Assembly (NCBI GenBank): GCA_002070475.1
Contig: MWDI01000034.1
Span: 1-64,000, forward strand
Direction: 5' to 3'
Length of the DNA stretch: 64,000 nt
From: Firmicutes bacterium ADurb.Bin146
GTDB lineage: Bacteria; Bacillota; Clostridia; DUPQ01
This document shows positions 3,386 to 62,241 of this stretch, piece by piece. A model generated the notes under the pieces. That model made no database searches. It was not told the origin of the DNA and saw only the letters and a list, made by a program, of their open reading frames with translations. How positions within the stretch are numbered: position 1 is the stretch's first letter; every line of letters begins with the position of its first letter. Made by a program: the position numbers and the translations under genes.

Positions 3386-4456
3386 TCAATACTTTCCAGC
3401 CTTTTTTACTGTTTCAACGATAATTTTGAAATTTTCAAGACTAACGCTATTTGGTATTGAATGATCTGAAGAGAAAATATAACCACCATTTTCCTTTAAT
3501 ATAGGGACATTTTGGTTTATAGCTTGTGTAACTTCATCCACTTTATCCCAAAGAACAGCATTTAATCCTCCATGTAGAACAAGCTTGTCTCCATATTTCT
3601 TTTTTAAGTAAATCGGATCCATTCCAGCTTTTATTTCTAGTGGATTTAAAGCATCAACTCCGATTTCTACTAAATCATTTACAAAACTCATAACATCACC
3701 GCAGGAATGCAGATGAGCATAAATGCCTTTATTGTGAGCCCAGTCAACTGCTTTTTTATGAAAAGGTTTTAAAATCTCCCTGTATGTTTCTATAGAGAAA
3801 AAAGTTGTATTTTTATAACCCATATCATCATACCAAAAAATGGAATCGAATCTGTAACCTTTGTCCCATAGAAGATCAAAATGCTTGATGCAGGAATTTA
3901 AATATGTGTCAAACATATCCATGACCCACTCTGGTTCTTCCAACATAGCTATCAGGATGGTTTCTGTTCCGCACATCCATGAATGAGTGACATCGAATCC
4001 AAACCAGAACCCTGCTTCTAACCAGTGTCCATTAGCAACCCATTCTGGATATACCCTCTCATAGCGTTCCCAATTTATTCTATCAGAACCTTCAAGCATT
4101 CTTTTCTTAGTTTCTTGAAACCAGATTTTAGATGTATTAACTTTATAATCAAGGAATTCCGGTGTGGAGTCTTCTTCCTTGAATTTTCTTAATGTAACTC
4201 CGTAACTTGTTGTATATATTTTCTGTTTATCATCTTCTTCAATAATTTTCACTTCATATTGGGGTGAAATATCCACATTAAATTTCGATACCTTATCTAC
4301 TTTGAAATAATCTCTCCAATCAGCATTTTCAGGCATTCCTTCTCTTTGCCATCTTTTGATTGTACCTTCCCAAGGGGCATCAATTATAGGTATCCTATCA
4401 GCTTCTTTATGTTGAAACATTCTTAGAAATCTTTCTTTAGAGGTCATTTCTTTCAT
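3386..4456 (-). CDS. URO-D family protein (MtaA/CmuA-like corrinoid methyltransferase type)
   Basis: 356 residues, complete, with an AAGGAG ribosome site upstream of the ATG. The fold-defining pieces of the uroporphyrinogen decarboxylase superfamily are present: SKERF near the start, the YDDMGY segment near 209-214 and the zinc motif HLHSCGD (His248, His250, Cys252). The HxHSCG arrangement is that of cobalamin-dependent methyltransferases such as MtaA rather than HemE. No haem genes are nearby, so a methyl-transfer or sugar-linked accessory role is more likely than decarboxylation. It is transcribed away from the SAM methyltransferase gene at 4516. This is one of three URO-D paralogues in the window. 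Confidence 0.8.
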   Translation of the reverse strand: MKEMTSKERFLRMFQHKEADRIPIIDAPWEGTIKRWQREGMPENADWRDYFKVDKVSKFNVDISPQYEVKIIEEDDKQKIYTTSYGVTLRKFKEEDSTPEFLDYKVNTSKIWFQETKKRMLEGSDRINWERYERVYPEWVANGHWLEAGFWFGFDVTHSWMCGTETILIAMLEEPEWVMDMFDTYLNSCIKHFDLLWDKGYRFDSIFWYDDMGYKNTTFFSIETYREILKPFHKKAVDWAHNKGIYAHLHSCGDVMSFVNDLVEIGVDALNPLEIKAGMDPIYLKKKYGDKLVLHGGLNAVLWDKVDEVTQAINQNVPILKENGGYIFSSDHSIPNSVSLENFKIIVETVKKAGKY

Positions 4457-44309: not shown

Positions 44310-45803
44310 CTAGTCTCTAAATGGATTTTCTGTCGGATAAAGTATACCTGCAGGTCTGTTGTAACTTATATCTTCAATATTCAGCATATGCATTGCATCA
44401 AACAGTATAGAACTCACATCATCAAAGGATACTCCTGCATGGTGAGGGAATTGTTTTTCAATCAAAATATGACGATAGAAGCGAGCCATTTCGGGTATTG
44501 CGATTACTCCTATACTACCAAAAGAATTCGGATCTACATCCAATACCTCGCCTTTAGCTATATAGCTTCTTAATTTTGCGTCTGCTGTGGACTGCAACCT
44601 GAAAAGTGTAGCATTACCTGGTTTTAAAACTCCATCGAGAGTTCCTCTGCTTACATCAGGTTCTTTATCTGGTTCAATTAAACGCTTCATTATTTTCTGA
44701 TAATCTAAAGTTCCACATCCTGATTTCAAGTTACACATTGAAGTATTACCACAATGGAATCCCATGAAAATATCCTGATTAGTATAAGGATATCTGGATT
44801 TTACATGCTTTTCAAATATTGCTCTTGGCACTGTATTGTTTATATCCAGTAAAGTAGGTATGGACTCTGACGCAAGATAAAGGATATATTCAGATAAAGC
44901 ACCATATATATCCGTCTCACAAGCGACTGGATAACCCATAGCGGCCATTCTTGAGTTAACATAACAGGGTACGAATTTAAACATTGTCTGGAATGCAGGC
45001 CAGCATTTATCAGCAAAAGCAGCATACTTAGAGGCCTCCAGATTGTTATCTTTCCAGTCAAGTAATGTTAGTTCGAATTGTGCTAGTTTTTGCATAACTT
45101 CAGGATGATTATTACGTCCGCAAAGTTCATCATTCATGCTTTTTATTACTGAAGGTATACGTTTGTCATTTTCATGTTTTCTGTATGCTTCAAAAAGATC
45201 CAACTCAGAGTTTTCCTGAATTTCCACTCCAAGATCAAATAATGGCTTAATAGGCGCATTACATGCTAAAAAGTTGTATGGTCTTGGTCCGAAAGAGAAA
45301 ATTTTCAGATTTTTAATACCTATCATTATTCTAGCTATAATTTCAAAACGTGCAATCATCAAGGCTACTTCTTCGGGATAACCAACAGGATACTCAGGAA
45401 TGTATGATTTTACATTTCTTAATCCAAGATTATATGATGCATTCAGCATACCGCAAAAAGCATCACCTCTGTTGTCATTAAGTGCGTCAGTATCGTTTTC
45501 TTCTGCAGCAGCACAAAACATAGTCAGTTTTTTGAATTTTTGAGCCAGCATGGTTTCTGGTCCTTCAGGTCCAAAATTCCCTAAATACACAACCAAGGCA
45601 TCAACTCCGTTTTTTTGTATATCATCGAGAGCCTTGGATGCATCATTTTCGTTTTCCACTATGACAGGACATTCATATATATCCTTATTGAGTTTTTTAT
45701 ATTCTTCTACTACCTTTAGTCTTCTGCTTTTCGATAAAGGTGCAGGGAAGCAGTCACGGCTTACTGCTACTATACCTAGTTTTACATTCGGCGCGTTATT
45801 CAT
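44310..45803 (-). CDS. L-fucose/L-arabinose isomerase-like protein
   Basis: 497 residues from ATG 45803, whose ribosome site GGAGGTAATT would be coding if the ATG at 45815 were used. The N-terminal Rossmann-like domain begins VKLGIVAVSRDCFP; the middle holds CETDIYGALS, where isomerases have a metal-binding glutamate, GFHCGNTS follows, and the C-terminal domain has FPHHAGVSF. This is the COG2407 FucI/AraA-like group, of which many members are uncharacterised. It probably isomerises or binds a deoxy- or pentose sugar. It is divergent from a URO-D gene across 131 bases. Confidence 0.8.
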   Translation of the reverse strand: MNNAPNVKLGIVAVSRDCFPAPLSKSRRLKVVEEYKKLNKDIYECPVIVENENDASKALDDIQKNGVDALVVYLGNFGPEGPETMLAQKFKKLTMFCAAAEENDTDALNDNRGDAFCGMLNASYNLGLRNVKSYIPEYPVGYPEEVALMIARFEIIARIMIGIKNLKIFSFGPRPYNFLACNAPIKPLFDLGVEIQENSELDLFEAYRKHENDKRIPSVIKSMNDELCGRNNHPEVMQKLAQFELTLLDWKDNNLEASKYAAFADKCWPAFQTMFKFVPCYVNSRMAAMGYPVACETDIYGALSEYILYLASESIPTLLDINNTVPRAIFEKHVKSRYPYTNQDIFMGFHCGNTSMCNLKSGCGTLDYQKIMKRLIEPDKEPDVSRGTLDGVLKPGNATLFRLQSTADAKLRSYIAKGEVLDVDPNSFGSIGVIAIPEMARFYRHILIEKQFPHHAGVSFDDVSSILFDAMHMLNIEDISYNRPAGILYPTENPFRD

Positions 45804-45934
45804 AATTACCTCCATTTATTCTTATTATTAATTAATTCTATATAAAAAACTACTTCAACGCAATCATATTATGTTTGTATCTAATGATATGTGTTATAAT
45901 TTTTGCTATAACTGGTTTTATAATAGGAGGAAAT

Positions 45935-47038
45935 ATGGAACTTTCAGTTCAAAAAATGCATGACTTCTATAACTTAAAAAAAGATGCTCCGATTTATCAA
46001 AGAGAATTCGGCTGGTATGTTATGGATAAATGGAAAGCACAAGGATGGGTCAATGATAATACAGATCTTGATGAGTTATTTGGATTTGATAAAGCTGCTA
46101 AACACTATTTAGGGCAGTGCGGGTGGTGTGAAGCACCTTTACTTCCTCTTTTTGAAAAAAAAATACTTAAGGTTACTGATGAATATGAAATAGAGCAGGA
46201 TAATGCCGGAAGACAGGTTCTGTATTTTAAAGGTAAAAGAAATGGATTTATGCCTTCTTATTTAGATCATCCGGTGAAAGACATGAAAACACTAGAAGAG
46301 AATATATCATGGAGAATGGATCCGAATGATCCTAAAAGATTTGAGAATCTTGACTTAAGGATGAATAAGGCTATTGAATATGAAAACAGAAATTTTATAA
46401 TCTGTGCAAATATTGCGGGAGGATATATGTACCTCAGATCATTAATAGGGCCTGAGGATTTGCTTTACAAATTTTATGACGATCCAGAACTAGTACATAA
46501 ATGTATGGAAATATGGTTTTCAGTTATGGATAAGATGTGCGAGACACACCAAAAATACGTAACTTTCGATGAAGTCTGGTTTGGAGAAGATATATGCTAT
46601 AATCATGGTTCTTTGATATCTCCTGATATGATAAAAGAATTTCTTTTCCCGTATTATCAGCAGCTTTTTGCTAATATCAGAAAAAGACAGATAGATAAAA
46701 ACAGAAAACTTCATTTCCAGCTTGACACAGACGGATATTCAATATCAGTTATAGACTTATACAAATCCATAGGTATGGATTATATGTCTCCATTTGAGGT
46801 TGCATCTGGATGCGATGTCGTTGAAGTTAGAAAGAAATATCCTGACCTTTTAATTTCAGGGGGAATTGATAAAAGAATATTAGCATCAGGAAAGGATGCA
46901 ATAGATAAGGAAATTGACAGGATAATGCCCTTTATGAAAAGGCACGGAGGGTATCTGCCAACATGTGACCACGGAGTACCTGAAGAAGTAGAATTTGAAG
47001 ATTATCTGCATTATCGCAAAAGGATGCTGGAATACTAA
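45935..47038 (+). CDS. URO-D family protein lacking the canonical zinc motif
   Basis: 367 residues from ATG 45935 with AATAGGAGGAAAT upstream; the frame from 45875 lacks a ribosome site. The superfamily layout is clear (FDEVWFGEDICYNHGSLISP in the centre, and the late LISGGIDKRIL and PTCDHGVPEEVEFEDY). However, at the position of the HxHSCG motif of the other two paralogues it reads HFQLDTDG (260-267), with no cysteine. It may bind metal differently or have lost methyl-transfer chemistry. Its neighbour across a shared intergenic region is a fucose/arabinose-isomerase-like gene, which suggests a link to sugar metabolism. Confidence 0.75.
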   Translation: MELSVQKMHDFYNLKKDAPIYQREFGWYVMDKWKAQGWVNDNTDLDELFGFDKAAKHYLGQCGWCEAPLLPLFEKKILKVTDEYEIEQDNAGRQVLYFKGKRNGFMPSYLDHPVKDMKTLEENISWRMDPNDPKRFENLDLRMNKAIEYENRNFIICANIAGGYMYLRSLIGPEDLLYKFYDDPELVHKCMEIWFSVMDKMCETHQKYVTFDEVWFGEDICYNHGSLISPDMIKEFLFPYYQQLFANIRKRQIDKNRKLHFQLDTDGYSISVIDLYKSIGMDYMSPFEVASGCDVVEVRKKYPDLLISGGIDKRILASGKDAIDKEIDRIMPFMKRHGGYLPTCDHGVPEEVEFEDYLHYRKRMLEY

Positions 47039-61245: not shown

Positions 61246-62241
61246 CTAGACTCCATAATGTCTTAACACATCTATAAGAGCAGTAATATTCTCATAGGGA
61301 ACATCATCTTGTATTTCCTGAGCAGGAGCGGCAATATATCCTCCTTTACTGCTCATTCTAGTAATTACTTTTTCAGCTTCAGCTCTTACCTGGGTAACTG
61401 TTCCATATGGAAGGGTACGCTGTGTAGAAATTCCACCCCAAAAAGCTAATTTATCTCCAAATGATTCTTTTATCTCATATATATCCATGCATTCAGGTTG
61501 TATTGGATTCAACACATCAACACCCATATCACATAAATCTGGTAAGATCTGCCGTACATTACCACAGGAATGTACCCATACGTCTTTTTTATATGTATGT
61601 ATAAGATCATATTCTTTTTTTTCGCCTGGTTTTATCATTTCCCTCCATAATACTGGGGACATTAATAAAGATTTTTGAGAACCCCAATCACTACCAAGAA
61701 GCACGCCGTCAATATATTCATTTGTTATCAGGTTCTCCAACATAACCATATTTTTTCGGATTATTGTGTTAAGAAGGTTCATTGAAAATTCTTTTTCACA
61801 TGCCATATCAGCAAGAAAATTTTCTATACCTCTAGCAAAATATGCTTTTTCAAAATGGCTGCCCCATATAAAAACTGTAATATAACACCCAAAGTTCTCT
61901 TTTAAAAATTTAGTATATTGCTCATAATCTGAATAACTCCCTGTACCTTTTGTTTTAGGCATATATGGAGGAGGATCTGATGAAAGATAAAATTCCTGAC
62001 TGTCGTACCATGACCACCATGGCGCGCTTACTCCTAATGCATGGTTTCCTATTGATAAGTATATCGCATCACATCTGGATATCATATTTTTCTTATATAC
62101 TTGCATTACTTCTTTAGTGCAGTAATCATCTAAAAGCTTTTCGCCATACTTTTCATTAGCTTTTCTGGTAATCTGAAGCAGAAAAGGGATTTTCTTAGTT
62201 TCCTTATGAGCAATTGCATCTTTTATATAATTTATATCCAT
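61246..62241 (-). CDS. URO-D family protein (MtaA/CmuA-like), third paralogue
   Basis: 331 residues. The zinc motif is WVHSCGNVRQIL (His224, Cys226), the substrate region YLSIGNHALG and the late GGISTQRTLPYG complete the barrel. It is more distant from the other two paralogues and lacks the FWYDD-type central segment, having LLGSDWGSQ instead. As for the first paralogue, a methyl-transfer role is more likely than haem synthesis. Strong AGGAGG site 5 bases before the ATG. No partner genes are adjacent; abrB and rny flank it. Confidence 0.75.
   Translation of the reverse strand: MDINYIKDAIAHKETKKIPFLLQITRKANEKYGEKLLDDYCTKEVMQVYKKNMISRCDAIYLSIGNHALGVSAPWWSWYDSQEFYLSSDPPPYMPKTKGTGSYSDYEQYTKFLKENFGCYITVFIWGSHFEKAYFARGIENFLADMACEKEFSMNLLNTIIRKNMVMLENLITNEYIDGVLLGSDWGSQKSLLMSPVLWREMIKPGEKKEYDLIHTYKKDVWVHSCGNVRQILPDLCDMGVDVLNPIQPECMDIYEIKESFGDKLAFWGGISTQRTLPYGTVTQVRAEAEKVITRMSSKGGYIAAPAQEIQDDVPYENITALIDVLRHYGV

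Follow-up and report, generated by a model that had tools for sequence, protein, structure and literature searches.

The window, that is the whole stretch of 64,000 nucleotides analysed here, belongs to the genome of Firmicutes bacterium ADurb.Bin146 and encodes on its plus strand, at 45935..47038, a 367-aa protein of the URO-D fold that starts with ATG and has its stop at 47038. The list of open reading frames places the start at a TTG (45875) and so gives a longer product; the alignment of relatives begins at the ATG at 45935. Divergent from this gene, on the minus strand at 44310..45815, lies a fucose-isomerase-like gene (Fucose_iso_C, 72.7 bits) whose product has no PDB sequence match at E <= 0.001. 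Two URO-D paralogues are encoded on the minus strand of the window at 3386..4456 (L012) and 61246..62241 (L008), and alignment bears out the motifs that a preliminary description of this DNA had read in them, HSCGD in the first and HSCGN in the second, whose sole PDB sequence match at E <= 0.1 is MtaA 4ay7. A promoter scan found 12 candidates, not clearly above shuffled sequences (mean 7.3, sd 3.1), and tblastn against plasmids returned three distant records, two of them without annotation.

The 367-aa protein passes the gathering cut-off of the Pfam URO-D family (PF01208; 41.4 bits for a cut-off of 23.9). The cut-offs of the MtaA/CmuA-type NCBIfam models are not reached (17.6 vs 235.4 bits for TIGR01463, 13.6 vs 400 for NF040654 and 21 vs 244 for NF004889), the hemE equivalog model TIGR01464 has no match to it at E <= 0.1 and PDB sequence searches gave weak matches only. 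The genome, of 2.5 Mb, contains 32 URO-D hits at E <= 0.001, 31 of which lie above the cut-off. A census by eye of the 30 hits that were aligned counted 16 HxCG, one FVCG, 11 xxDG and two other motifs; judging by this alignment, cysteine loss is common among the URO-D paralogues of this genome. In a tree of 51 rows (7 of the 24 close members entered it, among them the protein also listed as L018, and a row shorter than 250 aa was removed), a clade with support 100/97 unites the window protein with its relatives and with four paralogues. These paralogues carry ATDG (L018), DSDG (L023 and L029) and DTDG (L024), and together with the window protein they bring the clade, hereafter the DTDG clade, to five members in this genome.

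Conserved residues at the place of the thiolate zinc site

The preliminary description had reported, inside 46700-46740, a reading frame with HFQLDTDG where its paralogues have the zinc motif. The frame and the motif are there, at 46712..46735 on the plus strand, and residues 260-267 take in strand 5 of the barrel (260-264) and enter the following loop. When 30 of the genome's 32 URO-D hits were aligned, and then when 15 further proteins were included, D264-T265-D266-G267 stood in register with H-S-C-G; according to these alignments, the zinc histidine is replaced by Asp264 and the zinc cysteine by Asp266. The lack of the HSCG motif is thereby upheld, with TDG and DHG in register in 34/34 members, and what needs correction is the register, the part that falls under HSCG being DTDG and not HFQL. 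H260 of HFQ, four residues upstream of D264, was considered as the former zinc histidine and rejected, this position being H in just 12/34 aligned members.

Conservation was counted over 34 aligned members, namely those of 30 loci (the window included) and four sister or paralogue copies. T265, D266, G267, E288, D345 and H346 are invariant, residue 264 is D in 28 members and A in 6, and six basic residues, R93, R102, R127, R135, R168 and K313, are each found in 34/34. The earlier statement that the protein has no cysteine holds locally but not for the protein as a whole, which keeps C221 in 34/34 and C344 in 32/34 members. Of three pairs of sister species, two give a dN/dS ratio of about 0.035 and 0.07, and in the third the silent sites are saturated. 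The DTDG protein is under purifying selection, and sequencing error or gene decay is ruled out by this low ratio together with the 34/34 conservation.

The AlphaFold2 model, built with 17 sequences (pLDDT 90.2, pTM 0.88), matches TIM barrels of the URO-D type, in agreement with the earlier view that the barrel is intact. Uroporphyrinogen decarboxylases are its closest solved folds (Z 19.4-21.2, 292-316 residues aligned, rmsd 4.0-4.8), MtaA 4ay7 gives Z 17.6 and MetE Z about 10-12, and CdmB has no entry among the matches listed. In the model, D264 ends strand 5, D266 follows it, E288 (46796..46798, plus strand) lies three residues past strand 6 (283-285) and H346 is found in the last loop, before the final helix, within C344-D345-H346-G347-V348-P349 (46964..46981, plus strand). 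Counted back from the conserved xxEN/ED that follows, H346 would occupy the place of the last Cys of MtaA. According to excerpts of PMC539065, the zinc of MetE is held by a His ending strand 5, a Cys in the next loop, a Glu ending strand 6 and a Cys after strand 8, and E288 stands in the region of this Glu, the fourth ligand. The protein is thus comparable to MetE in its barrel and in ligand places after strands 5, 6 and 8, but by alignment has D(A)/D/E/H for the His/Cys/Glu/Cys of MetE. It likewise shares with the MtaA-type zinc methyltransferases (methylcobalamin:coenzyme M methyltransferase; Mlps) the URO-D fold and the putative strand positions of the ligands, while their HxCG and last Cys correspond to DTDG and DHG here. 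Alignment and model together suggest that the thiolate zinc site was rebuilt with the hard ligands D264 (or A), D266, E288 and H346, or else that the site is metal-free. The paralogue at 3386..4456, which has E at the place of residue 288 and DH at those of residues 345-346, looks in the alignment like a possible intermediate with the ligand set H/C/E/H.

A methyltransferase that retains zinc through other residues, E218/D219 or C344, and keeps the classical thiol or corrinoid chemistry appears very improbable. C344 is indeed close to H346, two residues away, and E218-D219 (46586..46591, plus strand), directly after strand 213-217, is invariant (34/34). Yet C344 is missing in L023, L024 and L029, members of the wider clade, which rules it out as a clade-wide substitute ligand, and the place of D219 is also D in many HSCG members and therefore does not represent a replacement. 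The preliminary description had named another residue pair holding zinc, with methyltransferase activity retained, as the finding that would contradict it; alignment does provide an alternative residue set, in an enzyme that may still be a methyltransferase.

The same description had concluded that the chemistry probably changed. This is supported by inference, since throughout the clade other conserved residues occupy the places of the His and of both thiolates of the MtaA/MetE-type site, but it is not proven by the loss of HSCG. Zinc-free methyltransferases of the URO-D fold are already known, so loss of HSCG alone does not mean that methyl transfer was lost. Excerpts of PMC13222342 report that zinc is absent from the structure of CdmB, whose activity was left unchanged by EDTA or zinc, that zinc was not observed in a Moorella O-demethylase, and that both are substrate-side methyltransferases (MT I) of the UroD superfamily.

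The likeness to uroporphyrinogen decarboxylases also brings to mind an acid-base enzyme working without cofactor on the URO-D plan, for instance a sugar-acid decarboxylase in which D266 or D219 would be the general acid and arginines would hold carboxylates. We consider this unlikely. The decarboxylases, the closest solved folds (Z 19-21), are not metalloenzymes in the excerpts of PMC539065, and the six invariant basic residues would suit such a function; but identity to them in the structure matches is 7-16% over about 300 residues, the hemE model is unmatched, and the places after strands 5, 6 and 8 are conserved as a set that a cofactor-free enzyme need not keep.

Gene neighbourhoods of the DTDG clade

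The fucose-isomerase-like gene had been taken as a hint of a sugar-related role. It and the URO-D gene diverge in the window and at the locus of the 90%-identical sister (L061), and absence of the isomerase gene from the same locus of an 81%-identical relative (L062) rules out a conserved gene pair. The hint itself fared better than the neighbour on which it was founded, with the reservation of an incomplete control: by-eye reading found a carbohydrate enzyme, a sugar transporter part or a related domain within about four open reading frames of the DTDG gene at 14/30 loci. These are the window (isomerase), L063 (GH2, GH38), L065 (ABC permease, GH43), L070 and L071 (xylose-isomerase-like barrel), L073 (solute-binding protein, PL22), L075 (solute-binding protein, CBM), L103 (GH4), L104 (GH3), L109 (GH38, GH4), L110 and L111 (GH29), and L116 and L117 (ThuA, Gfo/Idh/MocA), with L111 and L117 assigned from family member counts and from a resemblance to L110 and L116. 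Four further loci have an AraC regulator alone near the gene (L066, L067 by homology, L068 and L072). AraC regulators adjoin the gene in five loci, and one homologous group of them does so in L066, L067, L072 and L104. Nothing sugar-related was seen among the scanned genes of the other twelve loci (L062, L064, L069, L074, L076, L106, L107, L108, L112, L113, L114 and L115), L113 having permease homologues 4-5 kb away. The scan lists the 25 most frequent of 125 families, and 108/110 neighbour proteins entered it, two near-duplicates of window genes being left out.

The control consisted of 76 proteins from 17 places picked arbitrarily in carrier genomes (3/20 regions, all <3 kb, were dropped as having too few open reading frames), and the 25 most frequent of its 118 families also include glycosidases (GH95, GH2) and two AraC regulators. 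The carrier genomes are rich in glycosidase-type genes generally. Within the window genome, the clade paralogue L018 has genes for an arabinofuranosidase and a mannitol dehydrogenase at most 7 kb away, and L024 has those for a PfkB kinase and a xylose-isomerase-like barrel at most 4 kb away. A sugar role is the one we favour for the DTDG clade. A literature search, with most subscription journals outside its scope, brought up nothing published on this clade or on a part played by URO-D proteins in sugar metabolism, and neither uroporphyrinogen nor HemE nor COG0407 is mentioned in the 'Sugar Lego' paper.

Neither a corrinoid protein nor RACo was detected in the 30 loci by phmmer with the two proteins of the window genome as queries, several of these loci being short contigs. 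Such surroundings would fit a metal-dependent sugar enzyme devoid of methyl transfer, be it a lyase, an epimerase/isomerase or an aldolase acting on an anionic sugar intermediate, in which D264/D266, E288 and H346 would coordinate a hard divalent metal (Mg, Mn, Fe or Zn) by which a carbonyl or hydroxyl of the sugar is polarised. The invariance of D266, E288 and H346 and of the six basic residues, the carbohydrate genes and the adjoining AraC regulators all speak for this proposal. It nevertheless appears somewhat unlikely: the functions named for the URO-D superfamily in excerpts of PMC10418091 and PMC13222342 are decarboxylation or methyl/alkyl transfer, residue 264 is Ala in 6/34 members, and the bound metal is itself an inference.

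Other families were encountered close to the DTDG gene. A divergent URO-D-like family lies within 3 kb of it in four genomes (L103:4740-5807, L104:3760-4818, L113:9229-10314 and L069:8407-9783); 'IYHLDG' or 'IYHMDG' was read in the L103, L104 and L113 proteins, which lack a Pfam match at E <= 0.001. A family of about 410 aa is found at L103:5928-7163 and L109:3108-4325, its 412-aa protein having a weak URO-D match, and a 546-aa family (L034, L114 and L115) has no or a sub-threshold Pfam match.

Possible corrinoid partners and possible chemistry of the clade

The window genome encodes one PF02607 corrinoid protein (C22:151072-151659, in a 211-aa frame, with a neighbour that by eye looks like a tyrosyl-tRNA synthetase) and one RACo (C57:108242-108919), and no URO-D gene was found in the 12-15 kb around either of them (loci L123 and L124). 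Either one corrinoid protein serves many methyltransferases, or the chemistry of most of the URO-D paralogues is a different one. Of 27 distinct carrier genomes, 24 have RACo and 25 encode a PF02607 protein no longer than 291 aa, the exceptions being G257 (lacking both), G009 and G012 (lacking RACo) and G006 (lacking PF02607); G044/G255 and G092/G253, with hits at the same places, were counted once each and the genome of L068 was left out. In a class sample of 118 genomes, RACo occurs in 43/48 URO-D-positive vs 9/70 URO-D-negative genomes (Fisher p = 1.3e-17, kinship ignored), URO-D having been scored on at most 16 candidates per genome and used for presence only. Carriers outside the family of the window genome have RACo in 18/20 cases vs 41/106 for non-carriers (Fisher p = 3.5e-5, kinship ignored and some carriers coming from outside the sample). 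Within the URO-D-positive genomes of the sample, carriers (11/12) and non-carriers (32/36) are equal in this respect (p = 1), and the link with RACo and the corrinoid protein is therefore a property of the entire URO-D set and not of the DTDG clade.

The reverse approach, from RACo to its neighbours, found 15 URO-D proteins in 20 RACo regions: nine HxCG, one FVCG, one HICP, two FLEG and two HHSD/HHND. The last two (L154:3621-4736 and L159:9720-10697) have Asp at the Cys place, at loci that hold a corrinoid protein and RACo, and are candidate MT I enzymes. They fall elsewhere in the tree and do not have the E288 and DH features.

On this evidence we lean, tentatively, towards the DTDG protein being an MT I enzyme that, with a corrinoid protein as partner, removes the O-methyl group of an acidic sugar or of a compound derived from one. 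Hard ligands (D264 or A, D266, E288 and H346) would have replaced the thiolate zinc site of the MtaA/MetE kind, the invariant arginines in the barrel would bind the anionic substrate, and D266/H346 would make the ether oxygen a better leaving group, whether or not a hard metal is bound there. The methyl group would pass to Co(I) of a corrinoid protein encoded elsewhere in the genome, shared among enzymes and kept reduced by RACo. This reading draws on the likeness to the URO-D, MtaA and MetE folds, the ligand places, the RACo and corrinoid protein of the carriers, the zinc-free precedents CdmB and the Moorella O-demethylase, the sugar context and the HHSD/HHND loci, and we give it cautious preference over the three alternatives discussed above. 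Against it stand the loci, where neither corrinoid protein nor RACo was detected, the RACo association that is not specific to the clade, the four carrier genomes lacking RACo, PF02607 or both, the glycosidases of the control, the position of the HHSD/HHND proteins elsewhere in the tree, the nine HxCG among the 15 URO-D proteins of RACo regions, and the CdhC/AcsB family, which had no match in the five genomes tested.

An O-demethylase would depart in several ways from the systems already described. The known MT I enzymes of corrinoid O-demethylases (OdmB, VdmB, MtvB and CdmB) are comparable through the corrinoid protein and RACo of the window genome, a feature that is not clade-specific, and differ by their cluster of corrinoid protein and activator, which was not detected in the 30 loci. 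The zinc-free UroD-superfamily enzymes CdmB and MtvB, compared here by description only, share with the DTDG protein the URO-D fold and a barrel devoid of a thiolate zinc site, and most carriers have the corrinoid protein and RACo; unlike them, the DTDG gene stands apart from corrinoid genes and its product has a conserved polar D/E/H set. CdmB, encoded in a cdmBCA cluster, acts on haloalkanes and MtvB on methoxylated aromatics, according to excerpts of PMC13222342. The MtaA-type enzymes differ further by their NCBIfam models (13.6-21 bits here vs cut-offs of 235-400) and by the absence of a detected corrinoid gene in the DTDG loci. HemE remains the closest solved fold, at 7-16% identity and with its model unmatched.

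It is a serious possibility, if short of probable, that the clade as a whole passed from a thiolate site to a hard-ligand D(A)/D/E/H site and was recruited to sugar catabolism, either as sugar-ether O-demethylases or as a sugar enzyme that does not transfer methyl groups. The former would act on methyl ethers that are not aromatic, and many of these enzymes would deliver the methyl group to a single common corrinoid protein. The literature search found neither a URO-D-fold sugar-ether O-demethylase nor a non-methyl-transferring URO-D-fold sugar enzyme described, and PMC8630106 contains none of the words zinc, UroD and motif. Demethylation of sugar ethers would add to the routes by which digesters and guts dispose of the methoxyl groups that plant polysaccharides carry; if the protein is not a demethylase, a barrel of zinc and corrinoid chemistry would be seen turned to another chemistry. 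Whichever reading holds, naming members of the DTDG clade 'uroporphyrinogen decarboxylase' or 'methyltransferase' is unsafe. The clade, with its putatively rebuilt site and its sugar neighbours, offers a testable entry to the function of the many URO-D paralogues of this genome.

B12-binding domains (PF02310) have four matches in all in the window genome. One belongs to a 229-aa protein without PF02607 (C36:17947-18273; L122:7909-8583), encoded about 2 kb from the GSDG-type URO-D gene L026 (L122:4870-6024), with two ABC-transporter-like open reading frames between them.
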